Origin: a virus
Length of the DNA: 64,000 nucleotides
Reading direction: 5' to 3' (one strand)
IMG/VR virus record: IMGVR_UViG_3300033148_004210
Span: 1-64,000 of that record
Part shown: positions 7,342 through 61,201 of the stretch, one piece after another
Layout: each line of letters begins with the position of its first letter
Numbering within the stretch: position 1 is the stretch's first letter
Made by a program: the position numbers and the translations under genes
Notes under the pieces: model-generated
Told to the model about the DNA's origin: nothing
What the model saw: only the letters and a program-made list of their open reading frames with translations
Databases searched by the model: none

Positions 7342-8121
7342 ATGGCAAATCGTAATACAAGAATAAGAGGAATACAAATTTTAGATAAAGGTGTAGATAC
7401 TGCTCAAATAGCTGATAGTGCTGTTGAAGCTTTACAGATTAATGCTGATGCGGTTACTACTGTTAAAATTTTAGATAATAATGTTACTTTAGCTAAAATA
7501 GCAGATGGAACGGATGCTCAAATGATAATTTGTGATGCTAGCGGTTATCCTACCTATGCGGTAGTAACTGGTGGAGATGTTCATATTGATAATGCTGGTT
7601 TAGCTACTATCCAAGCTACTAAAGTTACTGATGCCATGCTTAATGATGATGTGGCTACTGGTTTAGCTGGTGTCGGTCTTTCTGATACTAGTGGTGTTAT
7701 GGCACTCGATGTTAATGAAGTTGGAGAAGTTGTGGTAGATGTTGCTAATGATTCGTTTTGTTTAACTGACAATTCCGATTCAGATGCTACTAAAAGGGAT
7801 ACCATTGCTGATTTAGTTACTGCTATAGCTGGAGCTGGATTAACAGCTACTGCTGGTGTTTTAGCAGTTGATGAACATGCTTCTGGTATAATTACTGAAG
7901 ATGATATAGTTAGAAATGAAGTTGTTGAACCCGATACTGCTTCAGATACTGATTATACTTTAGCTAATAGTCCTGTTGTTGGCACTGTGAATATCTATTT
8001 AAATGGACTTTTACAGCAACCAGGCACGGGAGAAGATTATGTTATTGATGGAGCAAGTGTAGTTTTTGCAACTGCGGTTGATGCTTCAGACCTCGTTTTA
8101 GCTGACTACATTGTGACTTAG
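7342..8121 (+). CDS. Fibre/decoration protein sharing N-terminal motif with the large fibre
   Basis: The ATG at 7342 follows AGGAGG (7325-7330); an earlier TTG at 7309 lies before the ribosome site. The 259-residue product begins MANRNTRIR, nearly the start of the large fibre at 9446 (MADRNTSIR), so both may dock at the same virion site. A middle region is rich in Ala, Val, Asp and Thr repeats (DAVTTVKILDNNVTLAKIAD), typical of phage fibre stalks. The C-terminal module (VNIYLNGLLQQPGTGEDYVI) is a beta head found in phage structural proteins. Ala/Gly/Asp codons make it more GC-rich than its neighbours. Confidence 0.65.
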   Translation: MANRNTRIRGIQILDKGVDTAQIADSAVEALQINADAVTTVKILDNNVTLAKIADGTDAQMIICDASGYPTYAVVTGGDVHIDNAGLATIQATKVTDAMLNDDVATGLAGVGLSDTSGVMALDVNEVGEVVVDVANDSFCLTDNSDSDATKRDTIADLVTAIAGAGLTATAGVLAVDEHASGIITEDDIVRNEVVEPDTASDTDYTLANSPVVGTVNIYLNGLLQQPGTGEDYVIDGASVVFATAVDASDLVLADYIVT

Positions 8122-29408: not shown

Positions 29409-29678
29409 TTAAAATATTAATAACATCGCAAAAAGAGTTAAAGTAGAATAAGGTATTATTTCACTCCAAGTCAGACTTTTTCCGAAAATTGTAACACTTC
29501 CTAATGTTCTCCAACTTAATAAAGCGAAAACCGAAGTTGTAATTATACTTCCTATAATATATACAATCCAATTTGATTTTATTATAGGTATAGTTAAAAA
29601 AGTCAAACAAGACATTAATCCTATTGTTCCTCTTGTCATACAGTTTGTTAATAATAAAATTTGTTCTTTTTTATTCAT
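29409..29678 (-). CDS. Small membrane protein (three hydrophobic segments)
   Basis: I take the ATG at 29678 (MNKKEQILL), which overlaps the end of the upstream endonuclease; a TTG at 29705 is also in frame. The 89-residue product has three hydrophobic stretches (about 15-31, 37-55, 70-88). With the amidase two genes away, holin is one possibility. Nothing in the sequence is specific. Confidence 0.55.
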   Translation of the reverse strand: MNKKEQILLLTNCMTRGTIGLMSCLTFLTIPIIKSNWIVYIIGSIITTSVFALLSWRTLGSVTIFGKSLTWSEIIPYSTLTLFAMLLIF

Positions 29679-30435
29679 AATTAAATACCAATATTTTAGA
29701 TTCAAGTTTCTCTAAATTTCCTAATTCTTTTTCCCATACTATTAAGGTTCTATATCCACATTTTTTGTAAGTTTTAATACGACGTTTATCTCTTTCCTTT
29801 ACATCTTTTCTATTATGCCAGTAATCGCCATATAATTCTATAATCTTTTTCTTATTTTTATGTATAAAATCAGGACAAAATCCTCCTATTATTAACTTTC
29901 CATCTCCTACGAATTTATATGTATTAGAAAATATTTTATTTAATAATTCGATTAATTTTAATTCTTTTTTATTAGGTGTTAATTTCAAAGCTTTCCAAGT
30001 GGCTTTGATAGTTTTTTCTCTAAATTTTAAATCCTTCCATTTCCTCTTACTTATTTCGGAAAATTTCTTTTTTTGTTTTTTAGAAAATTTTTTACCATAC
30101 ATCCCATTGTTTTTTCCTTTGGATTTTTCAGGATTAGTAATAATATCATATTTTCTTGCACAAGACCGACATCTTCCTCCTCCATAAACCCCAGAAAAAA
30201 CAGAAATTTCTTTACCACAATCTTTGCAAAAATACTGCTCAGAATATCTACCATCTATATATCTTCCATTATTTTTTCCTGAATTACTATTAGGACGAAT
30301 TTTTAATTTAAATTTTCTTAAATAATTTCCAACTGTCATTTGTGAACAGTCCATTGTTTTGACTGTTTGTGTTTGAGATTTTTTATTTTTATCGTATTCT
30401 CTTATTAAAAATTTTTTAGTTATTATTTTTTTCAT
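29671..30435 (-). CDS. Vsr-like (EDxHD type) homing endonuclease with HTH module
   Basis: The 254-residue protein starts with the HTH module (ITKKFLIREY, TMDCSQMTVGNYLRKFKL), then a zinc ribbon (CKDCG...CRSC) and a NUMOD-like stretch (GKKFSKKQKKKFSEISKRK). The C-terminal nuclease reads LIELLNKIF, GGFCPDFI, IIELYGDYWH, RRIKTYKKCGYRTLIVWEKE. It is a close relative of the gene at 14021 but on the other strand. It is inserted between two small membrane-protein genes, overlapping both. Confidence 0.87.
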   Translation of the reverse strand: MKKIITKKFLIREYDKNKKSQTQTVKTMDCSQMTVGNYLRKFKLKIRPNSNSGKNNGRYIDGRYSEQYFCKDCGKEISVFSGVYGGGRCRSCARKYDIITNPEKSKGKNNGMYGKKFSKKQKKKFSEISKRKWKDLKFREKTIKATWKALKLTPNKKELKLIELLNKIFSNTYKFVGDGKLIIGGFCPDFIHKNKKKIIELYGDYWHNRKDVKERDKRRIKTYKKCGYRTLIVWEKELGNLEKLESKILVFNYE

Positions 30436-32162: not shown

Positions 32163-32342
32163 TTACACCTTATAGAATTTGTCAACATCGTGTCCTTGAC
32201 CGTTTCTTATTTCCATCCATTCAATACATTTAAGAGCACAATCTAAACCTTTATCATGAGGTTGTTTAGCTATTTTCCTGTTCTCTATTGCATCTAAAAT
32301 CGCGTCTTTGGCTAAATCTATTATTTCTTTTTTTGTAAACAT
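32163..32342 (-). CDS. Small helical protein (59 aa)
   Basis: A 59-codon frame, MFTKKEIIDLAKDAILDAIE and on to KFYKV, fills the gap between two operon genes. Its ATG overlaps the stop of the upstream reductase (TAATG), the same coupling used elsewhere in this genome. It includes CALKCIEWMEIRNGQGHDVD. No function recognised. Confidence 0.6.
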   Translation of the reverse strand: MFTKKEIIDLAKDAILDAIENRKIAKQPHDKGLDCALKCIEWMEIRNGQGHDVDKFYKV

Positions 32343-33184
32343 TATCTTTTCCTTTCGATAAATTCTTTCATTTCTATTAATTGAGTTTTATAATTAGGTA
32401 TCTTAGGGTTATATTCTTTCTTTCGATTGTTGATTAGTGTTTTATCTTGTCTAAAGGTATCATTTTTCAATATATATACATCCCATTTTTCCCATATCCT
32501 ATCTATTAATTTCAATAAATCATATTTAGAAATTTTAAAATCAGGAGCAAGATGATAAAGTCCTATTAGTTTGGTATTTATAATCCTATCTATTTGTTTT
32601 GCAAGTTCGAACGTAGTAATCCCACTCCATATAGCCTTCGTATAGCCTTCTATATCCCCTTCTTGTCGCAGAAACCATTCAAAAAGACCACTTCCATCTC
32701 TCTTTAATTCATCTCCTATAATCGATAATCTAAGGGTCAGATGTTTATTATCTATAATTTCTCCCAGAACTTTAGTTTTTCCATAAACATTAGTTTCGTT
32801 TGGTATATCAGTCTCAGAATAATTTCCCTTCTTTCCATCAAAAACACAATCAGTGCTTATATGAATAATTTTAGTTTTCATATTTTTAGTAATATCTACT
32901 AGTGTATGAGGAAATACAGCATTAACAATCCAAGCGTTTTGAGGATATTTTTTAGAATCTTTAACTAAAATACCTACGCAGTTAATTATAATATCTGGCT
33001 GACTATTTATAATAACTCTTTCAAGAAAATTAATATCTCTAACTACATCTATAATAAGAGTATCTTTATTAAATTTTTGTCGGGCAGTATTTATTAATTC
33101 GTATTTATTAAGGGAGTCTAAATATTGGAAGATAGTATGACCAGCCATACCTCTTGAGCCGATGATGAGAACTTTCTTTTTCAT
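32342..33184 (-). CDS. RmlD-like NDP-hexulose reductase (WbvR/FnlB role)
   Basis: The 280-residue short-chain dehydrogenase has the NAD(P)-binding turn VLIIGSRGMAGHTIFQYL. The catalytic set is STDCVFDG with YGKTK (Tyr and Lys). PDIIINCVGILVKDS is typical of RmlD. With the 4,6-dehydratase at 33508 and the 2-epimerase at 34492 it forms a three-enzyme set that makes UDP-2-acetamido-2,6-dideoxy-L-sugars. Lacking the C-terminal cupin of CapF/WbjC, it is nearer WbvR-type enzymes, which favour the L-RhaNAc/L-QuiNAc branch. The product assignment is inference. Confidence 0.75.
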   Translation of the reverse strand: MKKKVLIIGSRGMAGHTIFQYLDSLNKYELINTARQKFNKDTLIIDVVRDINFLERVIINSQPDIIINCVGILVKDSKKYPQNAWIVNAVFPHTLVDITKNMKTKIIHISTDCVFDGKKGNYSETDIPNETNVYGKTKVLGEIIDNKHLTLRLSIIGDELKRDGSGLFEWFLRQEGDIEGYTKAIWSGITTFELAKQIDRIINTKLIGLYHLAPDFKISKYDLLKLIDRIWEKWDVYILKNDTFRQDKTLINNRKKEYNPKIPNYKTQLIEMKEFIERKR

Positions 33185-33196
33185 TCTTTTTTATCC

Positions 33197-33511
33197 TTAT
33201 TCGTTATATTTTTTAGCTAAATCAGGATACCAAAAACTTGAAACAGTATTTGACCCTTCTATTTTATCATCAATTTCATTTGTTCTTAATTGGGTTCTTA
33301 CCATTTCTATAGGAATTCGTTTAGTTGTTTCTATTATCGCAAACCCTCCATTATGTTCGAACCCTAAAGAATGTAACATTTTTAAAACTTTATTAAAATG
33401 CTTACTATCTTCTTTAGAATATATTCGAGTTTCAAGACAAGTATATAATCGAGGAACTACAGAATTATTATAAGAACATCTGGTTATAATTTGACCATAA
33501 TGCCATTTCAT
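33197..33511 (-). CDS. Hypothetical protein, copy 1 of a duplicated gene
   Basis: The 104-residue protein (MKWHYGQIITRCSYNNSVV ... SSFWYPDLAKKYNE) is almost identical to the product of 60295-60630, differing mainly after DLAK. It interrupts the three sugar-nucleotide genes and overlaps the dehydratase stop by 4 bases. No family is recognised; VEMVRTQLRTNEIDDK-like helical and beta segments suggest a small folded domain. Its presence in two unrelated operons suggests recent mobility. Confidence 0.7.
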   Translation of the reverse strand: MKWHYGQIITRCSYNNSVVPRLYTCLETRIYSKEDSKHFNKVLKMLHSLGFEHNGGFAIIETTKRIPIEMVRTQLRTNEIDDKIEGSNTVSSFWYPDLAKKYNE

Positions 33512-33516
33512 TTTAA
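33216..33516 (-). repeat. 301-bp dispersed duplication, copy 1
   Basis: This block matches 60335-60635 at a constant offset of 27119 with about ten substitutions and no visible gaps, roughly 97% identity. It covers most of the 104-residue gene and a few bases before its start. Similarity stops abruptly at both ends. Confidence 0.9.
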
Positions 33517-34491
33517 GTAGCCTCCTCTTTTAAGTAACTCTTTAATTTCTTCTTTTGTCATAAGCTTTTGATATGAATTATATTCTTCTAAAGTTGTTTT
33601 CTTATATCCTATATTATTTGCTGAATCCGCTTCATTGGTAATTAAATAATAATTCTTACCGTATTCATAAGCATTTGAAGTTTCATGTTTAGAGATAAGA
33701 ACTTCATCTATCTTTTCACCAGGTCTTATACCCATTATTTCTATTTTAGTATCTTTATTACCATAATATTCTTTCATAACTTCGGCTAAATCTATAAGCT
33801 TGCATGAAGGCATTTTCATAACAAACAATCCACCATTAATACCACTTCTCATAGCGACAAATAAAAGTTTAATTGCTTCTGGTAAAGTAAGGAAATATCG
33901 AGTCATTTCTTTAGAAGTTACCGAAATTTTATTAAATCGTTTAATCTGGTCTATCCAATGAGGCACTACTGAACCTGCTGTGCCTAAAACATTACCACCC
34001 CTTACAACCATAAATTTAGTTTTTTCACTTAATTTTGAGGCATTAAGCATGAGTTTTTCTCCTATAGCCTTAGTCATACCATAAGTATTGATTGGAAGAA
34101 CTGCTTTATCAGAAGAAACATCCACTACTAATTCAACCTCATTATCAATAGAAGCTCTTATTATATTTCGAGTGCCATTAATATTCGTTTTTATCGCTTC
34201 ATAAGGGAATTCTTCACAAATGGGAACGTGCTTGAGGGCTGAAAGATGAAAAACGTAATTAACCCCCTTACAGGCAAATTTAAGTTTACCATAGTCTCTG
34301 ACATTACCAATTTCTATTTTAATGCGAGGGTCATTGAATTTTCTCTTCATGGATACTTGATTGAATTCATTACGAGCAAGGATTTTAATTTGTTTTACGT
34401 CGAATTGTAGTAACTGTTTAGTTAATTCTTGACCCCAACTCCCAGTTCCTCCGCTTACCAGAATTATTTTTCCTTTAAACATATTTCCCAT
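33508..34491 (-). CDS. UDP-GlcNAc 4,6-dehydratase/5-epimerase (FnlA/WbjB/CapE family)
   Basis: The 327-residue SDR protein has ILVSGGTGSWGQELTKQLLQ (nucleotide site), IEIGNVRDYGKLKFACKGVN, FHLSALKHVPICEEFPYEAI, SSDKAVLPINTYGMTKAIGE and VVRGGNVLGTAGSVVP. These are hallmarks of CapD-like 4,6-dehydratases. The 2-epimerase gene next to it supports the FnlA/WbjB branch over PseB. Expected reaction: UDP-GlcNAc to a UDP-2-acetamido-2,6-dideoxy-hexulose with C5 inversion. Overlap with the next gene indicates one operon. Confidence 0.78.
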   Translation of the reverse strand: MGNMFKGKIILVSGGTGSWGQELTKQLLQFDVKQIKILARNEFNQVSMKRKFNDPRIKIEIGNVRDYGKLKFACKGVNYVFHLSALKHVPICEEFPYEAIKTNINGTRNIIRASIDNEVELVVDVSSDKAVLPINTYGMTKAIGEKLMLNASKLSEKTKFMVVRGGNVLGTAGSVVPHWIDQIKRFNKISVTSKEMTRYFLTLPEAIKLLFVAMRSGINGGLFVMKMPSCKLIDLAEVMKEYYGNKDTKIEIMGIRPGEKIDEVLISKHETSNAYEYGKNYYLITNEADSANNIGYKKTTLEEYNSYQKLMTKEEIKELLKRGGYLK

Positions 34492-37270: not shown

Positions 37271-38228
37271 TTAACCAGCCTTGAATTTTATTGTCTATAA
37301 TAGAAGCTACTTTTTTCATATCTGTGCATTTTTGTATTTGACTGTCCCATTTCTTTTTATTTATTGGAGTATTTATTTCTTTTAATAATTCTATTTTATT
37401 ATTAAAAATTGGGATATTAAATCTATCAATATTATATTTAGGTATTGCTCCATTAGGACTTAATACTTTTATACCTCTTACTAACATATCAATAACACTG
37501 AAATTATAACTACCTACATGTGTAATTATAAAAGTCTCCATTGTTTGAGTTTTTTCTAAATAATCCATATAATCGGTTGCTTGTATAGGAATAATCCAAT
37601 TAGGTAATACCTTTAAATGCTCGTTTTTCGGATTTCCGCATTTCAAATCAATAGAACGAGAAATAAGACTGTATATTTTATATTCGTTTTTTATCTCCTC
37701 TAACCAATTCCAAATTCTTTTTGACCAAGCGTAATGTTTTATTTTCTCATTTTTCCAGGCATTTAAATATATATGGTCTAATAAAATAGATTTAGATTCT
37801 TTCGGAATATTAAAATAAAAATCAGAAATATAAGGAGCTGGAATTATTTCTGTTTTATTTTTATCCTGCTTAAAAGGAGCATTTTTAAACATAAAAGAAA
37901 AATCTGATAGTTCTCCTATTTCTAAAAACGATATAACTTTTTTACATTTCTTTTTTAATAACGATATGTTTTCTTGGGTAAAGAAAGGATGATAATTTAT
38001 TATTATAATAAAATCTACATTTGGTATTTTTGATAAGTCTAATTTTGGCATTGATAGTCCACTATAATTTTTATTGGTCTTTATAAAATAATCACTTTCG
38101 ATTAAAGTAATATGTTCCATTTGTTTAAAGGACTGTTCTAGTCCATAAGTAAGCATTGAAAAACATAGATTTATATGTCTCTTGTTTTTTACTGGATAAC
38201 CTAATATTAATAGTTTATATTTTTTCAT
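37260..38228 (-). CDS. Putative GT-B glycosyltransferase
   Basis: The 322-residue protein has a Rossmann-like start (YKLLILGYPVKNKRHINLCF) and a C-terminal half with ETFIITHVGSYNFSVIDMLV, then RGIKVLSPNGAIPKYN and a helix, resembling the acceptor/donor domains of GT-B enzymes. The pattern is weak and no donor can be named. Overlap with genes on both sides places it in the glycan operon. Confidence 0.5.
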   Translation of the reverse strand: MKKYKLLILGYPVKNKRHINLCFSMLTYGLEQSFKQMEHITLIESDYFIKTNKNYSGLSMPKLDLSKIPNVDFIIIINYHPFFTQENISLLKKKCKKVISFLEIGELSDFSFMFKNAPFKQDKNKTEIIPAPYISDFYFNIPKESKSILLDHIYLNAWKNEKIKHYAWSKRIWNWLEEIKNEYKIYSLISRSIDLKCGNPKNEHLKVLPNWIIPIQATDYMDYLEKTQTMETFIITHVGSYNFSVIDMLVRGIKVLSPNGAIPKYNIDRFNIPIFNNKIELLKEINTPINKKKWDSQIQKCTDMKKVASIIDNKIQGWLNES

Positions 38229-38796
38229 TTTTTAATGTTATTATATGTTCAATTACAAATCTTTTATTTAAATTATATTTTCGAGTATTGTTATCAGTAT
38301 AAAAATTCTTTTTGGGTTTTTTCCAATCATTACCATATAAAATGTTTAAATAAGATTTATAATCTAAAATTATTTTAACTTCTTTACCTAGAAACAAGTA
38401 TTCGTTTCTTTCTGATATTATTTTTCTTGGGAAATATCTGATATGTTGTTTACTTAAATCTATACAATAATAAATATCTTTTTTCTTACTTAAAAAATAT
38501 CTATCTATATCCACATGTAAAGAACTATCTTCTTCTATTTTAATCGACCAATTGCCTCTAATTAAAGGAATTTTTAATCCTCTTTTATATAAAGAACTTA
38601 AAAAAGCATTGAGTTTATTATAATCATCAAAAAAATCATTAGTTGTTCCTATATCTATATCTTTATCATATTTAATAAAATCTTTATTTCTCATAGCTCC
38701 TAATAATGTTCCAGCTTCTAAAAAATAATCTATATTATTTTCTTCTAAAGCTTCTATTACTTTGAATAACAATTCTTTTGCTTTTGTTTTATTCAT
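38215..38796 (-). CDS. LicD-family phospho(no)transferase, copy 1
   Basis: The 193-residue protein carries the LicD/fukutin core: NNIDYFLEAGTLLGAMRNKD, FIKYDKDIDIG (the D-x-D metal site), and GNDWKKPKKNFY near the end. LicD enzymes move phosphocholine from CDP-choline to glycans; relatives in phosphonate clusters are thought to move AEP from CMP-AEP. The nearby cytidylyltransferase-PEP mutase gene makes the second substrate attractive here. ATGA overlap with the next LicD gene. Confidence 0.75.
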   Translation of the reverse strand: MNKTKAKELLFKVIEALEENNIDYFLEAGTLLGAMRNKDFIKYDKDIDIGTTNDFFDDYNKLNAFLSSLYKRGLKIPLIRGNWSIKIEEDSSLHVDIDRYFLSKKKDIYYCIDLSKQHIRYFPRKIISERNEYLFLGKEVKIILDYKSYLNILYGNDWKKPKKNFYTDNNTRKYNLNKRFVIEHIITLKNEKI

Positions 38797-39368
38797 TTTA
38801 CATCCTTATATAAAGGCATAATAGATTGGTAACTTATTAAAGTATAATGTTTATAAGGTATTTTATTTGTCCTACCTTTTTTTCCATGTTGAGGTATTCT
38901 CCAATCATTGCCATATAAATAATTTAAATATTTTTCTGGATTATGAGGAACTTTAAATTTCCTTTCTAAGAAAATAAGAGTGTCTAATGAACTTATAAAT
39001 TCTTCTGGAAACTTACTTATCATATCTTTTAAATAAATGTTATAATATTTTCCTTCTTTTTTATAATGATAAACATCAAGAGGCACTTTATTAGCATTTA
39101 AAAAACATGTCGAAGCAAAATCATTCCAATTTATATGTGGATAAATATTAACTTTCTTTAAATCTGCAAGTATATTATGCCACAATTTACCATCTTTAAA
39201 ATACTTATATTTGACTCCTATATCAATATCAGCATCTCCTTTAATAAAATTATTATCTCGGATTGCTCCTAAAAGAGTCCCAGAAGATAAGAAAAATTCT
39301 ATATTATATTTTTCTAATACATCTGCCATTTTAAAAAGATAGTTTTTTAACCCTAAATTTTTACTCAT
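38793..39368 (-). CDS. LicD-family phospho(no)transferase, copy 2
   Basis: The 191-residue protein is a diverged paralogue of the preceding gene, with YNIEFFLSSGTLLGAIRDNN, FIKGDADIDIGVKY and YLNYLYGNDWRIPQHGKKG. Two adjacent LicD genes suggest two acceptor positions or two different sugars to decorate. It overlaps the fused endonuclease/decarboxylase gene by 8 bases. Confidence 0.75.
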   Translation of the reverse strand: MSKNLGLKNYLFKMADVLEKYNIEFFLSSGTLLGAIRDNNFIKGDADIDIGVKYKYFKDGKLWHNILADLKKVNIYPHINWNDFASTCFLNANKVPLDVYHYKKEGKYYNIYLKDMISKFPEEFISSLDTLIFLERKFKVPHNPEKYLNYLYGNDWRIPQHGKKGRTNKIPYKHYTLISYQSIMPLYKDVK

Positions 39369-40581
39369 TTATAGCCCTCATAAATCTTTCTTTAATTTGT
39401 TTTCCAGTTAAAGGAATTCTTGGAGCATTTCCTTTGCCTTTTTCTATTTTAATAACTATAGTATTAGGAGCTAACGATTTAAAATCACAATAATTAGAAG
39501 CTGTTTGTTGTCCTCCTGTTGAAGCATGGGTGTTGTTATCCAAAATATAATGATGTAAATTTTTAGGATTTAATTTTTTATGTGTTATTAAACTATTTAA
39601 TCCCATAAGGGTTTCTCCATCTCCTGTTATAACAACTATTTTCTTTTTGGTATTTTTTGCAATACCGATACCTATAGAAAGACAACTGCCCATTCCTCCT
39701 AAAAGATATAAATTTTTATCACTATCTAATATTTTATAAATCGTCCTTGAAGTCATGCCTAATGAAGATATTAACAAAGTATCTTTTTTTAATGTATATA
39801 AAATTAATTTAATCGCTTCCTCTCTTGTGGGATTTTTATTGTTTACTAGATACTTAAAATATTTTTTCCAAAATTTTCTGTTTATATTTGTTTTGCCATG
39901 ACATGATAAACAAAGACTTATAAGGTTATTAAAATTTAAATTATTTTTATTGTAATCTATATGATGGATACATAAAGATTTTTTTATTTCGGATTGTTTT
40001 ATACTACATAATTGGCAACTATATTTATCTCTTTTTCTAATTTCTTTTTTTAATCTTTCTGTAAATTCTATAGGATAAGGTTCAAAAGAAGAACCATTAT
40101 TCCAATGAGGACTATTTTCTCCTTTCTTTGCACATGCCCCACATCTTCCTAAACCAAAACAAGCGGAATCATAACAAATTTTATTTCCACATTCTATACA
40201 ATAATAAATTTGTTTGGTTTTTCCATCTTTATAATTATGATTTAATTTATCTTTTTTAGATTCGCTCAAACTTCTAATAGGAATTTCATGTATTTTTAAA
40301 TATTTAAAAACAGTAGTTATTGAACAATTCTTTTCCATTGCTATTTTAGAAGGAATTTTTGAATTTTTGATATATTGTTCATAAAGAAATTCTTTAGTTA
40401 AAATTTTATCCCACTTTTTTTGATGGAGGTTTCGTCTCGGAATATTATATTTTTTCATCCAATATAATATCACTTTATGAGAACAATCTAATTCAGATGC
40501 AATCCTATGTAATGATATTTTATTTTTTATATATTTCTTGATAAGCAATTTTCTTGTTATGTTGTATTTTTTCTTAGCCAT
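39361..40581 (-). CDS. HNH homing endonuclease fused to phosphonopyruvate decarboxylase C-terminal half
   Basis: In this 406-residue protein, residues 1-245 are a homing endonuclease: two HTH modules (ITRKLLIKKY and LTKEFLYEQY, each ending with K(Y/I)xIP), a ribbon (CIECG...CGAC), then HNH (RDKYSCQLC, LCIHHIDYN, LISLCLSCH). From about residue 247 (NPTREEAIKLIL) it is the TPP-binding half of phosphonopyruvate decarboxylase: SSLGMTSRTIYKI, GGMGSCLSIGIGIAK, VVITGDGETLMGLNSL, HYILDNNTHASTGGQQT. GDG and NN of the TPP motif are kept. The N-terminal half is the next gene (40574-40939). The nuclease apparently invaded the decarboxylase gene at the domain boundary and left the C-half in frame. Confidence 0.85.
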   Translation of the reverse strand: MAKKKYNITRKLLIKKYIKNKISLHRIASELDCSHKVILYWMKKYNIPRRNLHQKKWDKILTKEFLYEQYIKNSKIPSKIAMEKNCSITTVFKYLKIHEIPIRSLSESKKDKLNHNYKDGKTKQIYYCIECGNKICYDSACFGLGRCGACAKKGENSPHWNNGSSFEPYPIEFTERLKKEIRKRDKYSCQLCSIKQSEIKKSLCIHHIDYNKNNLNFNNLISLCLSCHGKTNINRKFWKKYFKYLVNNKNPTREEAIKLILYTLKKDTLLISSLGMTSRTIYKILDSDKNLYLLGGMGSCLSIGIGIAKNTKKKIVVITGDGETLMGLNSLITHKKLNPKNLHHYILDNNTHASTGGQQTASNYCDFKSLAPNTIVIKIEKGKGNAPRIPLTGKQIKERFMRAINE

Positions 40582-40939
40582 TTTGTTTTACATATTTTAT
40601 GTTTTTATAATTAAGTAAATTTAATAATTTAGGAGTTATTTTACTCATATGTCTATGATATTCAGGTTTTTTTCTTAGACTTATTAATAAATCTATTTCT
40701 ATGTCATAATATTGCATAATAGAAGTTAATAAAGTTAAACAAGAACCCAATCCACTATCTTGCATAAAAACTAAAGGATTTTTATCCATTAATTTTGCTC
40801 CTATCGCCATAGCCAAAGCTTCATCCTCTTTTGTGGCAATAATAACCTTATCATAATTTATTATTCCTTTAAATTTAGAACAAGGAACTCCCGTAATAAA
40901 ATCATGAGAATCGACCCATCGTTTTAATTTTCTATTCAT
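40574..40939 (-). CDS. Phosphonopyruvate decarboxylase N-terminal (Pyr) half
   Basis: The 121-residue protein matches the start of phosphonopyruvate/sulfopyruvate decarboxylases: FITGVPCSKFKGI, IIATKEDEALAMAIGAKLMD with the cofactor-activating Glu, LVFMQDSGLGSCLTLLTSIM and PEYHRHMSKITPKLLNLLNY. The full enzyme converts phosphonopyruvate to phosphonoacetaldehyde. Separate alpha and beta chains are normal in ComDE, so the pair could still be active. This half is shorter than usual alpha chains (about 165), so a terminal segment may be missing. It overlaps the endonuclease start by 8 bases. Confidence 0.8.
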   Translation of the reverse strand: MNRKLKRWVDSHDFITGVPCSKFKGIINYDKVIIATKEDEALAMAIGAKLMDKNPLVFMQDSGLGSCLTLLTSIMQYYDIEIDLLISLRKKPEYHRHMSKITPKLLNLLNYKNIKYVKQNG

Positions 40940-42188
40940 ATTTTAATTTTCTTCTTTTTGTTTCTTCTATAGGAGTAAGACTACGAAATTCGTCCAAAGT
41001 AGATATATACTTTTCTAATGATTTTGCGTTTTGTTTAGTTTTCAATATCTGTAATATTTTTTTAACTCCAAATATTTTTGCTCTCTGAGTTTGGTTCGCA
41101 AATATCACTATCGAATATCCAGCATCAAATAATTCTTTATTAGTAATATGTGGGAATTTTGAAGGCACAATTATTAATGGTATTTCTCTTTTCCAATATT
41201 TAGGAATCCCCAGGGCTTCTTTTCCAGTTTTGTCTTTTGAGTGCATTAAAATAAGGTCTGCACCACAATCAGCATAATAATTAGCTCTTATTAATGCTTC
41301 TTTTTTCCCGTATCCTCTAATAAGAGCCTCTGTTCTTGCTATAATACAAAAATCTTTTGTTCTTTGTATTGCTTTTCCAGCTTTAATTTTAGCACCATGT
41401 TTTTTCATATCTACTATAGGAATTTTTCCTCCCCAAAGAGAATTAGATTTTGGAAAAATATTATCTTCTATACAAATTGCAGATACTCCAATTTTTTCTA
41501 ATTCCTTAACTGCTCTTATAAATTGTTCTATATTCCCATATCCAGTATCGGCATCTACTATAACAGGAATATTAACAGATTCTACAATTGGTCTTGCAAT
41601 ATTTATCATATCCGTTAAATTTATAGTTTCATTGTCTACTAATCCTAATCGGGCACTTGTTTCAAAAGAAGAAACCCAAATACCATCGAACCCATACTGT
41701 TCTACTAATTTCGCTGTAATGGCATCATTAGCAGATACTATTACTAATTTTTCTTTAAAAGCATTTTTTAAAGTGTTTTTACTCCTAATATTTTGTAATA
41801 ATTTGGTAGTTGATAAATTAGGATAATAAGGAACTAAAACAGTTTTAATTCCCATTTCTTCAGCTTTTTTAGTATAAGGAGGTATAAAGTCATCGCCATG
41901 AACTATTATATTAACATCGTATTTTTTCAAGTTTTCATATGTTGTAGGGGATTCTTTATCTCTACAATCTTTGATTACCAAATCAATTTCTTTAATAGAT
42001 TTTAATATTTCCACTCTATCTTTATAAGGCATTATAGGTTTTCTTTTATAATCTTGAGTTATATTATCAGGATGCACTCCAATTATTAAATAATCTCCCA
42101 AAGCTTTAGCTTTACGGAAAAATTCTATATGTCCCCGATGCGGTATATCTGCCACTACATTAGCGTATACTATTACTTTATTTTTCAT
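40932..42188 (-). CDS. Cytidylyltransferase-phosphoenolpyruvate mutase fusion
   Basis: In this 418-residue protein, residues 1-130 are a nucleotidyltransferase: VYANVVADIPHRGHIEFFRK with the HxGH site, then LVPYYPNLSTTKLL. Residues about 145-400 are PEP mutase of the isocitrate lyase superfamily: IVSANDAITAKLVEQYGFDG, VSSFETSARLG, IPVIVDADTGYGN, EDNIFPKSNSLWGG. The mutase makes phosphonopyruvate from PEP; the cytidylyltransferase would charge AEP as CMP-AEP. The usual EDKX5NS signature reads EDNX5NS, while the gating-loop FPKxNS is kept. Such fusions are known in bacterial phosphonoglycan loci. Confidence 0.85.
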   Translation of the reverse strand: MKNKVIVYANVVADIPHRGHIEFFRKAKALGDYLIIGVHPDNITQDYKRKPIMPYKDRVEILKSIKEIDLVIKDCRDKESPTTYENLKKYDVNIIVHGDDFIPPYTKKAEEMGIKTVLVPYYPNLSTTKLLQNIRSKNTLKNAFKEKLVIVSANDAITAKLVEQYGFDGIWVSSFETSARLGLVDNETINLTDMINIARPIVESVNIPVIVDADTGYGNIEQFIRAVKELEKIGVSAICIEDNIFPKSNSLWGGKIPIVDMKKHGAKIKAGKAIQRTKDFCIIARTEALIRGYGKKEALIRANYYADCGADLILMHSKDKTGKEALGIPKYWKREIPLIIVPSKFPHITNKELFDAGYSIVIFANQTQRAKIFGVKKILQILKTKQNAKSLEKYISTLDEFRSLTPIEETKRRKLKYE

Positions 42189-43153
42189 AAATAAAAACTT
42201 CCTTTATAATCATTAAAAAATTGATTTCTAATTCCTTTTTTAACTGCCTTTTCATAAATTATTTTCGCTAAAGCAATATCGCAAATAGCTATCCCTATAT
42301 TATAAGCTATAATTTTTTCTTTATTATTATCTCTTGCTCTTTTTCCTAAAATAATTTCCCCTAATTCTGCATAAATGTTTGGTAATCCTCCGCTAAATTC
42401 TCCTTTTGATTTATAATATAAAGTTTGTTCTTTGTCATCGGTAATAGTTTTATCAAATTTCATAGCACAATTTTCCCATCCTCTATGATGAATAGGTAAA
42501 ACCAATACCCCTTCTTTTAACCAATTCGGATTAACAAAAGGTTTATTTACATAAGTAGTTGCTGTTAAAATAATATCCGAATCTTTTACTGTTTTTTCTA
42601 TTGATGAACAAATTTCAAAAATTAACTTTGTTGGGCGAAATCTTTTAATAAACCTAACAGCAGTGTTTTTATATCTATAAATTTTTATTTTCTTAATTTG
42701 TGGACATAATTTATATATAAATTGCAAGCAAGCTACTGATTGGACACCTGCACCTATAATTGCAAGGGTTTTTGCTTCTTGAGTAGCAAAATATTTCGCA
42801 GTCAACCCAGCCATTACTCCTGTTCTCATAGCAGTAAGCCAACTAGCTTCCATTACTGCTAAAGGATGTCCTGTAATCATGTCATTTAATAAATAAGTGC
42901 TAATTACTTTTGGAATATTTTTATTAGTATTTTTGGGAAAACGACTTACCCATTTAATTCCTGACATATTGTATTTCGGAACATAAGAAGGCATTGAGGT
43001 AAAAAATATACCATCTTCAGGAGCAATACTTACTTTGGCTGGCATAAAAACTCTTTCGTTTGCGTGTTCTTTTAAAACATCTACTATCGCATTTAAACAT
43101 TCATTAAAAGTAATCTTTAATGATAATATTTGTTTATGAGATAAAACAATCAT
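42185..43153 (-). CDS. Ornithine cyclodeaminase/mu-crystallin family dehydrogenase
   Basis: The 322-residue NAD(P)-dependent protein has FMPAKVSIAPEDGIFFTSMP, GIKWVSRFPKN with the substrate-binding Lys, AMRTGVMAGLTAKYFA, LAIIGAGVQSVACLQF (nucleotide turn) and GGLPNIYAELGEIILGKR. Family members reduce or form imines of small amino acids. It lies between AEP transaminase and PEP mutase, with overlaps on both sides, so it probably acts on a phosphonate or an amino acid linked to it. I cannot name the substrate. Confidence 0.75.
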   Translation of the reverse strand: MIVLSHKQILSLKITFNECLNAIVDVLKEHANERVFMPAKVSIAPEDGIFFTSMPSYVPKYNMSGIKWVSRFPKNTNKNIPKVISTYLLNDMITGHPLAVMEASWLTAMRTGVMAGLTAKYFATQEAKTLAIIGAGVQSVACLQFIYKLCPQIKKIKIYRYKNTAVRFIKRFRPTKLIFEICSSIEKTVKDSDIILTATTYVNKPFVNPNWLKEGVLVLPIHHRGWENCAMKFDKTITDDKEQTLYYKSKGEFSGGLPNIYAELGEIILGKRARDNNKEKIIAYNIGIAICDIALAKIIYEKAVKKGIRNQFFNDYKGSFYL

Positions 43154-44240
43154 TTTTTACCTTCTTTACTGCTTTCAAAAACTTTCTAATATCTTTCTCT
43201 GTTATATTCCCTATATTTCCTAACCTAAAGGTTTTTTCATTGGTTAATTTTCCAGGATAAATAGTGAACCCTTTTTCTTTTAATTTATCATGAAATTTAT
43301 TAAAATCAAATTTTTTAGGTTCATAAAAAGTCGAAACTATCATACTTTTTTCCTCATCTATAAATAATAAAGGTCGAAATCCTAATTGTATCATACCATA
43401 TTCCAATTCCATAGAATTGCGACAATATCTTTTATATCGATTTATTCCCCCTTCTTTAAAATATTCTTTTAAAGCTTGTTTTAAAGAATATAAACATTGC
43501 ACCGCAGGTGTAAAAGGAGTTTGATTATGTTTATCAAAATGCTTATAATTACGCCATAAATTTAGATAATAAGACCTTATAGGATAATTTCGAGTTTTCA
43601 TAAGTGCCATTTTTTTTGCAATTACAAATGAAATTCCTGGCATCCCTTGTAAACATTTATTTGCTGAACCCATAATAAAATCGGCTTGAACTTTTTGAAT
43701 ATCAATAGGTATTCCCCCAAACGAAGATATAGTATCAACAATATAAATTTTTTTATGTTCTTTAACTATCTTTCCTATAGTTTCAATATCATTTAAAATT
43801 CCTGTAGTAGTTTCGTGATGAATTACTGCTACTGCGGTTATATCAGGATAATATCTAAAACAATATTCGATAGCATCTATTCTGATAGAAGTTCCCCATT
43901 CTGTTTTTATTGAAATAGTATTAATACCATAACTTTTTGCTATTTCTTCTATTCGTGTTCCATAAGCTCCATTTTCTAAAATCAATAATTTTCCATTTTT
44001 CGGAATAACAGAATTAATAGTGGCATCCATAACAGAAGTTCCTGAACCAGTAAATAATATAGAAGTATATTTTTTATCCCCATGAACTACTTTAAGTAAA
44101 TCTTTTCTAATACCTTCCATCACTGCCCCAAACTCCTTTTCTCTTGGACAAATATCAGGAACAACTTGAGCATATTTTACAGTGTCGGTAGTTGTTGCTG
44201 GTGCTGGAGTTAATATAATATTTCGTTTAATTTTTTTCAT
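43134..44240 (-). CDS. 2-aminoethylphosphonate-pyruvate transaminase (PhnW-like)
   Basis: The 368-residue class V PLP aminotransferase has NIILTPAPATTTDTVKYAQV, DICPREKEF, SILFTGSGTSVMDATINSVI, AVIHHETTTGILNDIE, VDTISSFGGIPIDI, and MGSANKCLQGMPGISFVIAK with the PLP Lys. These match AEP transaminase. In a synthetic setting it would run towards AEP, amination of phosphonoacetaldehyde. It overlaps the sulfotransferase by one base (TAATG). Confidence 0.82.
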   Translation of the reverse strand: MKKIKRNIILTPAPATTTDTVKYAQVVPDICPREKEFGAVMEGIRKDLLKVVHGDKKYTSILFTGSGTSVMDATINSVIPKNGKLLILENGAYGTRIEEIAKSYGINTISIKTEWGTSIRIDAIEYCFRYYPDITAVAVIHHETTTGILNDIETIGKIVKEHKKIYIVDTISSFGGIPIDIQKVQADFIMGSANKCLQGMPGISFVIAKKMALMKTRNYPIRSYYLNLWRNYKHFDKHNQTPFTPAVQCLYSLKQALKEYFKEGGINRYKRYCRNSMELEYGMIQLGFRPLLFIDEEKSMIVSTFYEPKKFDFNKFHDKLKEKGFTIYPGKLTNEKTFRLGNIGNITEKDIRKFLKAVKKVKNDCFIS

Positions 44241-45220
44241 TAATATTTCCTATAAGGTTTCCCAGAATGGAATCCATTGGCATTAAGCCATTTATAATGT
44301 TCTCTAACTGCATCCACACATTCTTCTTTTTTATAATCAAGAGTATATCCAAAATACTCCATTATATCTCCAAAATAATATTCAATAACTTTTCTTTGAT
44401 ATTCTGTTAAAATTTCCTTATAAATACCAATTCTATTTTTATTAATTCCTTTATAAATTTTAGTAAAACTATTTCCTTTCCATTCTACTCCACAACAAGT
44501 TGGATTAAGATTTAAAAGGGATTCTCTAATTCCTATCCATTGACATAATTCTGTCATTGATTTTTTTGGAGATTGCACTAACTTCTCATAACAAATATTT
44601 TTATATTTTGTAATTCCGAATTTAAGCCAATTATCTTTCGCCATATTCATACATAAATAACCTCTATCAATAAAATCTCTTAATAATCTTTCTTTACTGT
44701 CATATTGATTTTTGTAATGCTTATCCCATCCAGTTAAAATAGAAGCGAAATTATCTCTTGGGTCTCTAACTATATTTATAAATTTGGCATCTGGGTAGAT
44801 TTTAAAAATTTCATTTACATATATTTCAGAATGGGTATCTTTAGTAATTACAATTTTATCTTTTATTCTTATTTCTTTATCTAAAACATTTCTTACAGCA
44901 TCTATCATAGAAACAAAAAACCCACATACATCTTTATTGTGAATCGATAAAAGTGCATCAAAATTATTTTCTAATTCTTTCTGAAAAATCTCCTTTTTAC
45001 CCCATTTTAAAACTATTTGACACAAATCTTTTAATAAAAAATTCTTTATTCTATCTTTTTGTTGTTCTAAAGTATATTTAGATTTTAAATATTCAGGATA
45101 AAAAGAATACCAAAAATGAGTTTCATAAGGATAGACCCATAAATCAGGATGTCCATCTAAAAGACTAGCGAGTAAAGTAGTCCCTGATTTTCTATGTCCT
45201 CCAACAAATAAATGTTTCAT
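44240..45220 (-). CDS. Sulfotransferase (PAPS-dependent), long form
   Basis: The 326-residue protein has the 5'-phosphosulfate loop FVGGHRKSGTTLLASLLDGH and the 3'-phosphate site FINIVRDPRDNFASILTGWD, hallmarks of the sulfotransferase superfamily. YEKLVQSPKKSMTELCQWIG is the usual third region. It probably sulfates a sugar of the glycan assembled by the operon, using host PAPS. No PAPS synthase is encoded in the window. Confidence 0.82.
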   Translation of the reverse strand: MKHLFVGGHRKSGTTLLASLLDGHPDLWVYPYETHFWYSFYPEYLKSKYTLEQQKDRIKNFLLKDLCQIVLKWGKKEIFQKELENNFDALLSIHNKDVCGFFVSMIDAVRNVLDKEIRIKDKIVITKDTHSEIYVNEIFKIYPDAKFINIVRDPRDNFASILTGWDKHYKNQYDSKERLLRDFIDRGYLCMNMAKDNWLKFGITKYKNICYEKLVQSPKKSMTELCQWIGIRESLLNLNPTCCGVEWKGNSFTKIYKGINKNRIGIYKEILTEYQRKVIEYYFGDIMEYFGYTLDYKKEECVDAVREHYKWLNANGFHSGKPYRKY

Positions 45221-52450: not shown

Positions 52451-55400
52451 TTATTCCTCCTTTAAATCTTTTATTTTAGGGTAAGGTTGTTCAGGAAATT
52501 TTTTATACCAATCTCTTTTTTCTTTTTTATTACCTAGACACATTAAATAAACATGTTTTTTCAAAGCGGATTTTATCTCTAATCTATCTCCGTAAATTTG
52601 TTCTAAATTTTTCTTAGATGTGCTTCCATGTTTAGCATTTAAATTTCTTGTATGCACTTCTTTCCCATCAATAAAAATTCTTCTTTCTGGTAATAATCTC
52701 CTTTGAACACCAACATATCTCCAATTAGTTGCTTGATAAATATAACCAATATGTCCATGATTCGGGTCAGCATAAGAAATTAAATATTTAAATTCTGGTC
52801 TATTTTGTCTAATATATTTGAAAGATTGACCTATACAATAACTTTCTATATTTTTAGGTAATCCGTCTTTACTAAATAATCTGATTAATTCTACACAATT
52901 TTCTCTATCTATCTGTAACCATTCAGTAACTCTTCTTCCTATAGGGCATCCATAGACAACAGCAGTAACTAATTCTTTATTATAATAGAATCCTAAAGCC
53001 AGTTTAACAGATGAAGCAATGGTGTGGGAATAATGATTTTTTATTATGTATTTTTTAGCTTCTCGAAAATCTATTTTTTTTATTTCTAAATCTTTTAATT
53101 CAAAATCCAATTCTTTTATTTGTTTTTTCTCTTTTTGAATTCTTTGATATTCTTGATTTACAATGTCTATATTTGGAGCGAGGTTAGAGACTTGCACTCT
53201 ACTCTCCGAACTGGAAGTTCGGCATGTCTTTTTCGACACTTCCCTCGCAAACTGTTTTTCGTTTTTAAGTTTATTAATATATTCTGCCACTTCGTCTTTA
53301 GTTTCTATTCCTATAATTTCCTTAATATTCCACCCCATTGCCTCAAATATAGTTTGGAGTTTCATTAAAATATTACGATTCTTCATAGTTTCCCAATCTA
53401 CTTTGTTTTTATCCACATGTCCGTATGTTTCTTCATCAAATGCCATCACATTTTTTAATTTGCCTTTAGTTGTAATAGAATGTGTAGTTACTTTCCCTTT
53501 GGTAATTAAATGTTCGATTAATTCTTCTTGTTTAATTTTATCCATATTTTTTACTAAAACTTTTTGTCCAAAATGTAATTCCCATTCTTTCTTTAATTTA
53601 GAAGAAGTTAATTTACCTCCATCATACCAAAGAATATTCTTTTTATTCTGCTCATATTCATCTGAATTTACATAAATATAATAAAATAATTCTCCTACTT
53701 TTTTCTTAAAAGAAGGAACTAATTCTTGAGCATATTTTGAAGCCCGAACAAAGATTGGCATGTTTTTATATTCATCTATAGGTTTGCCAATTTTACAGGG
53801 AAAAGCGATATTTTGCAGTGGTTGATTTCTTATTTCTTTAATTTGATTTTTAATCCATACAAAAATAGATTCTTTGGATTCTTTATCGAGTATTTTATCT
53901 ATAAGAGTTCGTTGGAATTTTTTCATAAATACAGTGCTATCTTTTCTTTTTGCTTCTACTCCTTTAACTTCTTCTTCTAATCCTTTGTCTGTTCGAACAT
54001 AACCAAGATACCTACACTTTGTTAATATCAAAATTTTCTCATAATATCCTTTATATTCGAATTCGTTGACAATATTTTCTTTACCATATTTATCCTTAGC
54101 CCATTTTTTTACTAAACTATTCAAAAGATTGGAAATATCATCAGTATTGTTGTTTATCATAACCCCATCGGTGTCCACATATATAACTTCGTAACCCTTT
54201 GATTTTAAAGCAGTTATGACATAATGTAAAAGGTCTCGAACTAAAAAAGTAGTCGCAGATGCAACTTGTTTATTATAAAGTCTAAAAAATCTATTCCCAA
54301 ATACTCCATATGCACTATTCACAACTGTTTTAACTGCATCATATCTTTTTTTTATATCTTTATAATGTCCACTATTTATTGGACATTTTGATAAAGCGGA
54401 CTTAATTTGATTTTTCAAAGTTATCAACTTCTTGACAACTGTTGGAAGTAACGCATTTGAATTTTGTGCGAAATGGCTATTTTCTATAGGAAGTATGTCA
54501 AAACCATCTGCTATCAATCCTTGTTTATCAGATTTTCTTATATTAGCAGGGTCTAAACAAAAATCTATAATCATTGAGGGGTAGCAAGAACTAAGGTCAT
54601 AGATTCCAGTTCCTTCAGTAAACGCTCCAGTTTTAAACGCTTCTCTAAATGCTCCAGCAAAATCTTCTTTTTCTGATAATGTTCCTCTCATTTCGTCAGG
54701 TTTCATTGGTAAAGCTACTTTTTGATTTTTAGCTTCTTGTAATAAAAGCATATCCAATACTCTACTATTCCACAAAAGGTCTTCCCATTCTATTTTCGAC
54801 ATTCTTCTAATTTCATCAAAATAAGAAATAATTTTATGTTTCTTTTCTAACTCAACTAATATCTTAACATCGTCTATATTTCTTTCTTTTGTTTCAGGAG
54901 AAAGTTTAGAAAAATCTAACTTCATATGCTTCTTGCCACGACCTAAATGTTTTTTAGCAATATAATCTAGAGAATAGGCTTGCTCTCTATTTAAAGTTAC
55001 CTTTTTAAACCAAGAAAGATAATCTATAATACTTATACCAGCAGGGTAATAAATTTCTCCGTCTCCATAACGAGTTTGTCCAATAGGACTAATTGATTCG
55101 GCAAAATCTGGATAACGATTACATAAATACGGAAAATCGAATCTTGTAAAATTCCAACCCAATAATATATCAAATTTCTCTTGTTTAAGATACTCTATAA
55201 AAGAATCTATCATTTTGTATTCTGTTTCATAATCTTCGAGATAAAATGTTTTAATTTTCTCACTAAAAGAATTCGAAACACTAATACAACTAACAGGTTT
55301 ATTTGCTTTTTTTACATCAGGCAATTCATCCGATAATATTTCTATATCTATAAAGGAATATTTAATAGGACATTTATCTAATTTATCAATAGCATCAATC

Positions 55401-58527: not shown

Positions 58528-59198
58528 TATTTTATTTCTCCTTTAAAGTCTTTTGTTTTTATTTTAGTTATTATTCTATATCCTCTTCTGTCTCTTAATT
58601 CGTATTTTAGTTTGCCTACTACTCCTTCGGCTATAAAGTCTCCAAATGTTGAATACACTCCTTTTTTAATACTGCTAATTGCACAATCAATGGTAGTTTC
58701 TCCTATAATAGGAACAATCCCTATTCCTAATTGGTCGGCTATTTTTTCCAGGTCTTCCCTTTTTAGCCAATAATTACCTATCTTAATATCGAATAAAATA
58801 AATTCTACTCGCTTTTCTCCATTAACATATTTGCCACCAGTTTGTATTTTATATCCGTATCCTTCTCCGTAGAGACAAACATCAGGCAGTTCATCTCCCA
58901 TTCCAAATATTTCTTTCATTTTTTCTAAAGGAAATAATTGCTGTAATTTTTCTAATAAATGTTTAGGCACATCTGCTTTATCTGTCTTCCCTTTGAATTC
59001 TATTTCAGGATAACATAAAGGACAAGTATAATAACAAACTCTAATATTAGTTCCATCTATTTTTTCTGTCCAGACCCATTGTAAGTCTTTTAAGAATTCA
59101 AATTCAGGTTTACTGTATTCTCCGATAATAAATTTACCTTTCTTCGCTCCTTCTAAATATCTTTTATACAATCCGTTGATTTTTGGGTATTGATTCAT
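58527..59198 (-). CDS. RNA ligase (T4 Rnl2-like)
   Basis: The 223-residue protein, starting at the ATG of the TAATG overlap with the RecA-like gene, has the nucleotidyltransferase motifs: WTEKIDGTNIRVCYY (motif I, catalytic Lys), LYGEGYGYKIQTGG (III), EFILFDIKIGNYWL (IIIa) and AEGVVGKLKYELRDRR (IV) ending IITKIKTKD (V). It may repair nicks in host or phage RNA such as cleaved tRNA. No polynucleotide kinase is visible in the window. Confidence 0.82.
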   Translation of the reverse strand: MNQYPKINGLYKRYLEGAKKGKFIIGEYSKPEFEFLKDLQWVWTEKIDGTNIRVCYYTCPLCYPEIEFKGKTDKADVPKHLLEKLQQLFPLEKMKEIFGMGDELPDVCLYGEGYGYKIQTGGKYVNGEKRVEFILFDIKIGNYWLKREDLEKIADQLGIGIVPIIGETTIDCAISSIKKGVYSTFGDFIAEGVVGKLKYELRDRRGYRIITKIKTKDFKGEIK

Positions 59199-60160
59199 TA
59201 TTTCATTACCTTCCATATTTGTTTTTCTATATGTTCCCAATCTTTATCTGTTAGCAATTTTATGAAGTTATCTTTCCCTACCGCTTTCTTTTTACCGTAA
59301 GTATATGTCTTTCCTGATAATTCAATTATTAAATATTTTAATGCACTAAAGAATACGCATTTTTTATTGTTAATTTTGCCAGTTATAAAAAAGTCAATAA
59401 CGCCTCTACGATATGCTCTGCCTTTTTTATTCTTCTTTGCAAAAATATTAATCTCCATCCCTATTCTTTCCTTCTTATCTCCACTACCTACATCTATAGG
59501 TTTACCAGCTCTGAATTGGATTCGTGAATCGTATAAATGTTTTAAAGCCCTACCCCCAGCAGTATGTTCTGGATTACCATACATAACCCCGACTTTTTCT
59601 CTTAGTTGATTAATAAAAATTACTGTAGTTTTATATTTATTTCTTATCCTATTAATTTTCCTACACATTGGAGAATTAACACTTGCTTGAGATGCCATTG
59701 TTTTTTCTGTTAAATCTCGTTCTATTTCAGCCTCTGGAACTAACGCTACAATACTATCAATAACTATTAAATCTACTTGGGGAATTAATTCTAAAAGACA
59801 TTCCCCAGCTTCTTCTAAAGTATCAGGAGTAATAAGCAATATATTGTCATTATCTACTCCATTTATTTTAGCCCATTGAGGGTCATAAGAAGCTTCAGCA
59901 TTAATGAAAGCACAAGTCTTACCTAATTTTTGATATTTAGCAATAATCTTTAAAGCAAAAGTAGTTTTACCAGAAGATTCTCCACCATAAAATTCTATCA
60001 TATGTCCACCAGAATATTGGGAGATACCGCCATCAAGACAATAATCAAGAGGATAAACCCCTGTCCTAATCTTAGGCTCTACAATAATATCAGAACCTTT
60101 TTGAACTTTGTAATTTTTTTCCAATGAGTTTAAAAGTTTATTTAGTTTTTCATTTTTCAT
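59198..60160 (-). CDS. RecA/UvsX-like recombinase
   Basis: The 320-residue protein has Walker A FYGGESSGKTTFALKII, Walker B LIVIDSIVALVPEAEI, TEKTMASQASVNSPMCRKI, VIFINQLREKVGVMYGNPE and GGRALKHLYDSRIQF, the core of bacterial RecA. The C-terminal domain is short. Expected roles are strand exchange and recombination-dependent replication together with SbcCD-like, RuvC-like and primase proteins here. It overlaps the small HTH gene upstream by 11 bases. Confidence 0.88.
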   Translation of the reverse strand: MKNEKLNKLLNSLEKNYKVQKGSDIIVEPKIRTGVYPLDYCLDGGISQYSGGHMIEFYGGESSGKTTFALKIIAKYQKLGKTCAFINAEASYDPQWAKINGVDNDNILLITPDTLEEAGECLLELIPQVDLIVIDSIVALVPEAEIERDLTEKTMASQASVNSPMCRKINRIRNKYKTTVIFINQLREKVGVMYGNPEHTAGGRALKHLYDSRIQFRAGKPIDVGSGDKKERIGMEINIFAKKNKKGRAYRRGVIDFFITGKINNKKCVFFSALKYLIIELSGKTYTYGKKKAVGKDNFIKLLTDKDWEHIEKQIWKVMK

Positions 60161-60320
60161 TTTCTTCCCATCTTTCTTCAGGAATGTCTCCTCGTTTTAA
60201 TCCTTCTTTAACTCTCTCTATATTTCCAGGTCTTCCCATAAGTTTGGCAATTCTTTCTAAAGTTTTGCCTTTTTGAAACTCGGCTATTATTTTTTTATCT
60301 GTTCCGTTTAAATGACCCAT
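60150..60320 (-). CDS. Small HTH-like protein (56 aa)
   Basis: The frame MGHLNGTDKKIIAEFQKGKT then LERIAKLMGRPGNIERVKEG has a helix-turn-helix look (IIAEFQKGKTLERIAKLMGR), as in resolvase-type HTH regions. It overlaps the gene on each side. It might regulate the recombination genes. Not confirmed by family recognition. Confidence 0.55.
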   Translation of the reverse strand: MGHLNGTDKKIIAEFQKGKTLERIAKLMGRPGNIERVKEGLKRGDIPEERWEENEK

Positions 60321-60630
60321 TATTGTATTCCTTTGCTAAATCAGGATACCAAAAACTTGAAACAGTATTTGACCCTTCTATTTTATCGTCTATTTCATTT
60401 ATTCTCAATTGGGTTCTTACCATTTCTATAGGAATTCGTTTAGTTGTTTCTATTATCGCAAACCCCCCATTATGTTCGAATCCTAAAGAATGTAAAATTT
60501 TTAAAACCTTATTAAAATGCTTGCTATCTTCTTTAGAATATATTCGAGTTTCAAGACAAGTATATAATCGAGGAACTACAGAATTATTATAAGAACATCT
60601 GGTTATAATTTGACCATAATGCCATTTCAT
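60295..60630 (-). CDS. Hypothetical protein, copy 2 of a duplicated gene
   Basis: The 111-residue protein is nearly the same as the product of 33197-33511; the last residues differ (DLAKEYNNGSFKRNR). Here it lies between a small HTH gene and a RuvC-like gene, where the longer C-terminus is generated by reading on into local sequence. Function unknown. As it survives intact in both places, selection on both copies or a recent duplication is indicated. Confidence 0.7.
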   Translation of the reverse strand: MKWHYGQIITRCSYNNSVVPRLYTCLETRIYSKEDSKHFNKVLKILHSLGFEHNGGFAIIETTKRIPIEMVRTQLRINEIDDKIEGSNTVSSFWYPDLAKEYNNGSFKRNR

Positions 60631-60635
60631 TTTAT
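60335..60635 (-). repeat. 301-bp dispersed duplication, copy 2
   Basis: This block matches 33216-33516 at about 97% identity (about ten substitutions). The copies are 27 kb apart, in the same orientation. Direct repeats of this length could recombine, deleting the glycan and half of the replication block. Confidence 0.9.
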
Positions 60636-61201
60636 TCCTCCACCAATCCTGCTAAAGCTAATACACACGCATCTGCAATATCTTGGTCTTTTATTTTTAA
60701 TTTCAAATCCAACGCATTATTGATATATTCTACGATTTCTTTTTTGAGTGCATGTCCCTTTATTTTTTTAGAAGATTTTTTAAAATTTACTTTATTTCTT
60801 GCCGAAGTTGGTAATAGAAATTTCTGCTTACGAGCCAATCCTTTAAATTTATCATAAACAAGCACCGAATGACGAGCCAATGCTTTAAGCGTATTGACAT
60901 TAGACCCAAAATAACAATCTTCAATAATATTAATATCTATTTTATAAGTTTTACTTATTTCCATAGCAAATTCATTTAATTGATTAATGAATAAATCAAG
61001 AGCATCTATTTGAACTACATTTTTAGGAATAGTTATTTTTCGGGTTTTATCTATAATAAGATAACTATCAGTAGTTCTAATAACAGCTACCCCTGTGCTT
61101 CGAACACTAACATCCCAACCTATAGAAATCATATTAGGTTTCAAGTGGATTCCTAAAAAAGCTTCTACTCTGGATTTATTAATCTTTTTTATTGGTTTCA
61201 T
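60632..61201 (-). CDS. RuvC-like Holliday junction resolvase
   Basis: The 189-residue RNase H-fold protein has MISIGWDVSVRSTGVAVIRT (first Asp), INIIEDCYFGSNVNTLKALA (Glu) and IKDQDIADACVLALAGL (final Asp pair), the catalytic pattern of RuvC-type resolvases found in phages. LPTSARNK also fits. It would resolve recombination intermediates before packaging. It overlaps the primase gene by 23 bases. Confidence 0.78.
   Translation of the reverse strand: MKPIKKINKSRVEAFLGIHLKPNMISIGWDVSVRSTGVAVIRTTDSYLIIDKTRKITIPKNVVQIDALDLFINQLNEFAMEISKTYKIDINIIEDCYFGSNVNTLKALARHSVLVYDKFKGLARKQKFLLPTSARNKVNFKKSSKKIKGHALKKEIVEYINNALDLKLKIKDQDIADACVLALAGLVEE

Follow-up and report, generated by a model that had tools for sequence, protein, structure and literature searches.

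Two near-identical copies of an orphan phage gene at unrelated operon junctions, probably a retained lineage-specific paralogue

How does the same small gene come to lie in two unrelated operons of a single phage, with its reading frame whole in both places? The question is raised by the 64,000-nucleotide stretch of viral DNA analysed here (the window), which is part of a viral record of 101,595 bases; the 37.6 kb outside the window were read as well. Because the two ends of that record (1-99 and 101497-101595) have in common an exact 99-nt direct repeat, the record probably represents a complete phage genome, assembled as a circle. Elsewhere in the window, a minus-strand gene (52451-55651) encodes a 1066-aa protein in which a family B DNA polymerase (300-672) is followed at the C-terminus by a Mom DNA-modification domain (residues 854-1059; PF25680, E 8.6e-45). 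The polymerase frame of the closest relative (G001, 78% identical) has only 790 codons, and the match ends at residue 780, which suggests that this phage has gained the Mom part. A phosphonate-type cluster on the same strand (38215-44240) contains genes for a PEP mutase-cytidylyltransferase fusion, a TPP enzyme and a class V aminotransferase, together with two LicD-like genes and an OCD/mu-crystallin gene; a sulfotransferase gene (44240-45220) adjoins it.

A repeat search of the window returned a direct repeat of 300 nt at 96% identity (33204-33503 and 60323-60622, spacing 27,119). The near-identical 301-bp duplication, 27 kb apart, that the initial annotation had reported is therefore real, and its coordinates and description were right. 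The features of both loci are collected in Table 1. As had been claimed, the minus-strand frames of both copies are open, and the copies sit between sugar-nucleotide genes (Polysacc_synt_2 and RmlD) in the one case and between recombination genes (RuvC-like resolvase and RecA/UvsX) in the other. The aligned coding sequences agree at 295 of 309 bases, so that the changes are indeed few, although at 14 they slightly exceed the ten or so first counted; the proteins are 97% identical. The copies become alike 4 bases upstream of the ATG, and the first 111 nt of the common stretch, which contain no difference, are their longest identical run. The likeness ends 103 codons after the start, just short of the stop codon of copy 1, and the flanks on either side are at background identity (32% upstream, 35% downstream), in agreement with the sharp ends first described. 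The stop position of copy 1 is lost in copy 2, the 3' end of which overlaps the next gene by 26 nt, out of frame. The base composition of the duplicated gene equals that of the phage. An opposite-strand frame (33162-33473 and 60323-60592) is likewise open in both copies; it was rejected as a gene, its translation being 87% conserved against 97% for the minus-strand frame.

Table 1. Features at the two loci of the duplicated gene (positions in the window). The motifs serving copy 1, rmlD and copy 2 were read from the sequence; the functions of all four motifs are predicted.
Feature	Position	Strand	Remarks
RmlD-like reductase (rmlD), downstream of copy 1	32342..33184	-	PF04321, E 1.6e-23
TAAGGAT at copy 1 stop	33193..33199	-	putative ribosome-binding-like site for rmlD
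Copy 1, orphan gene	33197..33511	-	104 aa, own TAA stop, intact frame
Polysacc_synt_2, sugar-nucleotide dehydratase/epimerase (pst2), upstream of copy 1	33508..34491	-	PF02719, E 5.8e-92
GAGGAGG inside pst2	33521..33527	-	Shine-Dalgarno-like, would serve copy 1
RecA/UvsX-like recombinase, after the 56-aa gene	59198..60160	-	PF00154, E 1.9e-60; phrog_97, E 9.6e-61
Conserved 56-aa gene, downstream of copy 2	60150..60320	-	78% identical in L003
Copy 2, orphan gene	60295..60630	-	111 aa, intact frame, final 8 codons not common to copy 1
AAAGGA inside copy 2 coding sequence	60329..60334	-	placed as putative ribosome site for the 56-aa gene
RuvC-like Holliday junction resolvase, upstream of copy 2	60632..61201	-	PF02075, E 1.3e-6; phrog_159, E 3.6e-10
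GGAGG at ruvC end	60637..60641	-	Shine-Dalgarno-like, would serve copy 2

Both copies are maintained as protein genes under purifying selection, because third codon positions account for 12 of the 14 differences (P 8e-5), only three change an amino acid (M45I, T77I and K101E; P 3e-5), and dN/dS is ~0.06 (dN ~0.012, dS 0.13-0.20 by NG86). Across methods, dS between the copies lies between 0.11 and 0.43. For ruvC and recA of this phage and of L003, the closest relative found, it reaches 0.73 and 0.96, respectively, by NG86 (range 0.57-0.96); because these values are higher, the copies separated after the split from L003, which fits the absence of the gene from the corresponding slots of that relative. 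The transfer that the initial annotation called recent can be so described inasmuch as it is younger than the L003 split, but the divergence between the copies is too large for a last-minute event.

What occupies the two sites in related phages bears directly on the question. At the first site the stop codon of pst2 and the start codon of copy 1 overlap as ATGA. Among 59 distinct viral loci containing pst2, the gene lies directly beside rmlD in 47 (46 recognised by a motif script, together with L033 added from tblastn), usually with stop and start codons overlapping; a different, unrelated gene lies between the two in five, and seven have no rmlD nearby. In L010 the slot between pst2 and rmlD holds a different gene, of 62 aa, at an identical AAATGA junction. 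At the second site L003 (ruvC 89%, recA 87%) has an unrelated gene of 69 aa starting right at the ruvC stop codon, other genes follow ruvC in L005, L006 and L008, and recA comes directly after ruvC in L007, where the slot is empty. Further small genes stand at the adjoining junctions of L003, one of which separates primase from ruvC while the other precedes recA. The primase-polymerase, a single 635-aa gene in the window, has in L003 a homologue split into two overlapping frames (5796-6245 and 6215-7702).

In this phage the neighbouring genes are intact at both junctions, which fall at or near gene boundaries. The slot occupants of the relatives have no detectable relationship to the duplicated gene, and none of the relatives found carries that gene at either position. 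Both positions are evidently gene-junction slots with common turnover of small genes, of which the duplicated gene is one instance. The view that the sites are unrelated and the insertion not anciently conserved is thus borne out, both insertions being lineage-specific; ancient conservation of both positions, named at the outset as grounds for abandoning that view, was looked for in the relatives and was not found.

The protein itself gave no match above noise in Pfam, PHROGs, NCBIfam, PADLOC or PDB sequences, and its description as the product of an unknown gene holds for family, structure and defence matches alike. No relatives were found in viral contigs, species genomes, or phage and plasmid records, where the contig scans need an exact 8-residue match and so exclude close relatives only. 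A weak match in G002 (L014, 12.8 bits) was set aside as noise, since it covers 31 residues within an unrelated 196-codon frame; two hand-made motif scans gave chance matches only; and a structure predicted from the two copies (mean pLDDT 48.7) was too poor for a fold search.

From the position of the motifs in Table 1, each copy is presumably translated by coupling from the Shine-Dalgarno sequence of the upstream gene. The AAAGGA motif in copy 2 is partly created by a change of AAA AAA to AAG GAA, which comprises two of the 14 differences. In this genome AAATGAA is a very common start context. On the coding strand AAATGAAA occurs 25 times, against about 6 occurrences expected from base composition, and 24 of the 44 minus-strand genes checked start with ATGAA.

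The probable explanation of these findings is ordinary phage mosaicism, in which non-homologous or microhomology-scale recombination at start codons, together with selection, has left a retained lineage-specific paralogue of an accessory gene. The coding sequence would have been placed at the second junction by such recombination, joined at AAATGAA, and selection would have spared only those junctions at which the genes on either side remain whole and translated. The ends of the likeness would match the coding sequence so exactly because only neighbour-sparing junctions survive. The Shine-Dalgarno sequence embedded in the upstream gene would drive each copy, and the 3' end of the copy would in turn provide a ribosome site for the downstream gene. 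Possession of two copies may bring a benefit of dosage or of expression timing, which is a guess from the retention of two selected copies. Three considerations tell against this explanation. Independent acquisition from related donors would look the same; the uneven spread of the differences is not predicted by simple duplication followed by even divergence; and the direction and mechanism of the transfer, as well as the order of events (the priority of one copy over the other, or an outside origin of both), are what we infer, as no genome carrying just one copy was found.

The uneven spread could reflect gene conversion between the copies or local selection at the 3' end. No difference falls within the first 107 nt (post-hoc P 0.0018) and five of the 14 fall within the last 18 nt (post-hoc P 0.0003), where a span of five codons contains four synonymous changes. 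This clustering is what an older duplication might leave behind if gene conversion had kept the copies alike, the interior being exchanged while the ends drifted; RecA and RuvC genes lie beside copy 2, the phage has its own RecA/UvsX and RuvC-like proteins, and both copies are on the minus strand. Such a history is nevertheless on the unlikely side, although it deserves to be kept in mind: the tests were chosen post hoc and draw on 14 differences, the age of any duplication is limited by the absence of both copies from the L003 slots, and part of the 3' cluster may be due to selection for the internal ribosome site formed by the AAG GAA change, though such selection covers only two of the five differences in the cluster.

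It is also conceivable, if rather improbable, that each copy arrived independently from a different donor phage and that no duplication took place within this genome. Both sites accept unrelated genes in relatives, two related donors could give a dS of 0.1-0.4, and neither a donor nor a single-copy genome was found that would speak either way. However, the gene was not found in the other viruses, plasmids and genomes searched, which makes two arrivals less economical than one duplication.

The common start context might even point to a class of start-codon-precise 'plug-in' genes, promoterless, inserted repeatedly at AAATGA-type junctions by means of start-context microhomology, borrowing the upstream ribosome site, passing on a new one and spreading without a mobility gene; we consider the existence of such a class very doubtful.

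Signs of mobility were sought at both copies. There were neither terminal repeats nor a target-site duplication, only the letters of the start codon being repeated at the edges, and no common flanking DNA, whether promoter or stem-loop, was found beyond 4 bases. No terminator was found at either copy, and promoter-like matches occur at the shuffled background rate. As the initial annotation had supposed, the gene has no nuclease of its own, in that no family match to a nuclease domain was obtained; its neighbours are not homing-type nuclease genes, and the nearest endonuclease gene (29671-30435) lies ~2.8 kb from copy 1. About ten HNH/NUMOD-type genes are present in the genome, with a mutual identity of roughly 30-60% compared with 97% for the two copies. 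These paralogues exchange N- and C-terminal parts among themselves (window positions 3645, 6623, 8188, 14021, 15284, 22917, 29671 and 39361; record positions 92711 and 97895). In one of them (39361-40581, minus strand) a single frame joins a TPP_enzyme_C domain to an N-terminal part that is HNH endonuclease-like and homologous to the other HNH genes of the phage, which gives the impression that a homing gene has interrupted, or become fused with, a TPP-dependent decarboxylase.

The proposal that the gene is a selfish or mobile unit accordingly finds no support, since it has neither terminal repeats nor the target duplication that was to be checked for, and purifying selection argues that it is kept for a function. 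Carriage in trans by the homing endonucleases of the phage, as had been suggested, is most improbable: the endonuclease genes are at hand, and repair of a homing-induced break can join at microhomology, according to a review of T4 (PMC2988022), but none adjoins either copy, there is no common DNA outside the coding sequence, the endonuclease paralogues are far more diverged than the copies, and the gene was not found spread among the other phages searched. An assembly artefact (strain mixture or mis-joining of repeats in a metagenome contig) has equally little to commend it. The 111-nt identical run is longer than the 99 nt by which the ends of the contig overlap, and might have confused short-read assembly, but the gene order around each copy is that of the relatives on either side, which makes a chimera unlikely, and 14 sites, mostly synonymous, distinguish the copies.

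Comparison with known systems helps to place the preferred reading, recombination at start codons followed by selection. A phage moron is an additional gene that separates two neighbours standing side by side in relatives. The duplicated gene also lies between such genes; no terminator was found at its copies, their promoter-like matches stay at background and their base composition is that of the phage. In mycobacteriophages, genes without homologues have been found inserted at gene boundaries (PMC3029335). Gene 68 of Island3 is of this type (PMC3029335), and resembles the present case in being a small, relative-less gene between genes that neighbour each other in relatives, with those neighbours intact; the difference is that here the same gene lies at two unrelated junctions in one genome. 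Phage T4 amplifies genes via microhomologies of 6-10 bp, and its segmental amplification of tifA is alike in giving extra copies of a small phage gene, with very short homology as the likely route (PMC9391042). The T4 amplifications are tandem, however, and carry flanking DNA, whereas here there are no head-to-tail copies, and only coding sequence is repeated, 27 kb apart. In T4-like phages, the free-standing cassettes that encode homing endonucleases (mobE and others, PMC2988022) are promoterless and, like the duplicated gene, lie between genes and overlap the upstream stop codon, but the duplicated gene has no nuclease domain, relatives or nuclease neighbour. The common promoter or stem-loop flanks of a T4-type mobile regulatory cassette are also missing.

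The locus provides a clean worked case of an orphan phage gene added at operon junctions without breaking the translation of its neighbours, the same sites being empty or differently filled in relatives; otherwise it represents ordinary phage gene shuffling. That two copies are held under purifying selection suggests that the amount or the timing of this small protein matters to the phage, which makes the gene a reasonable one to test for function, for instance in counter-defence or host takeover.
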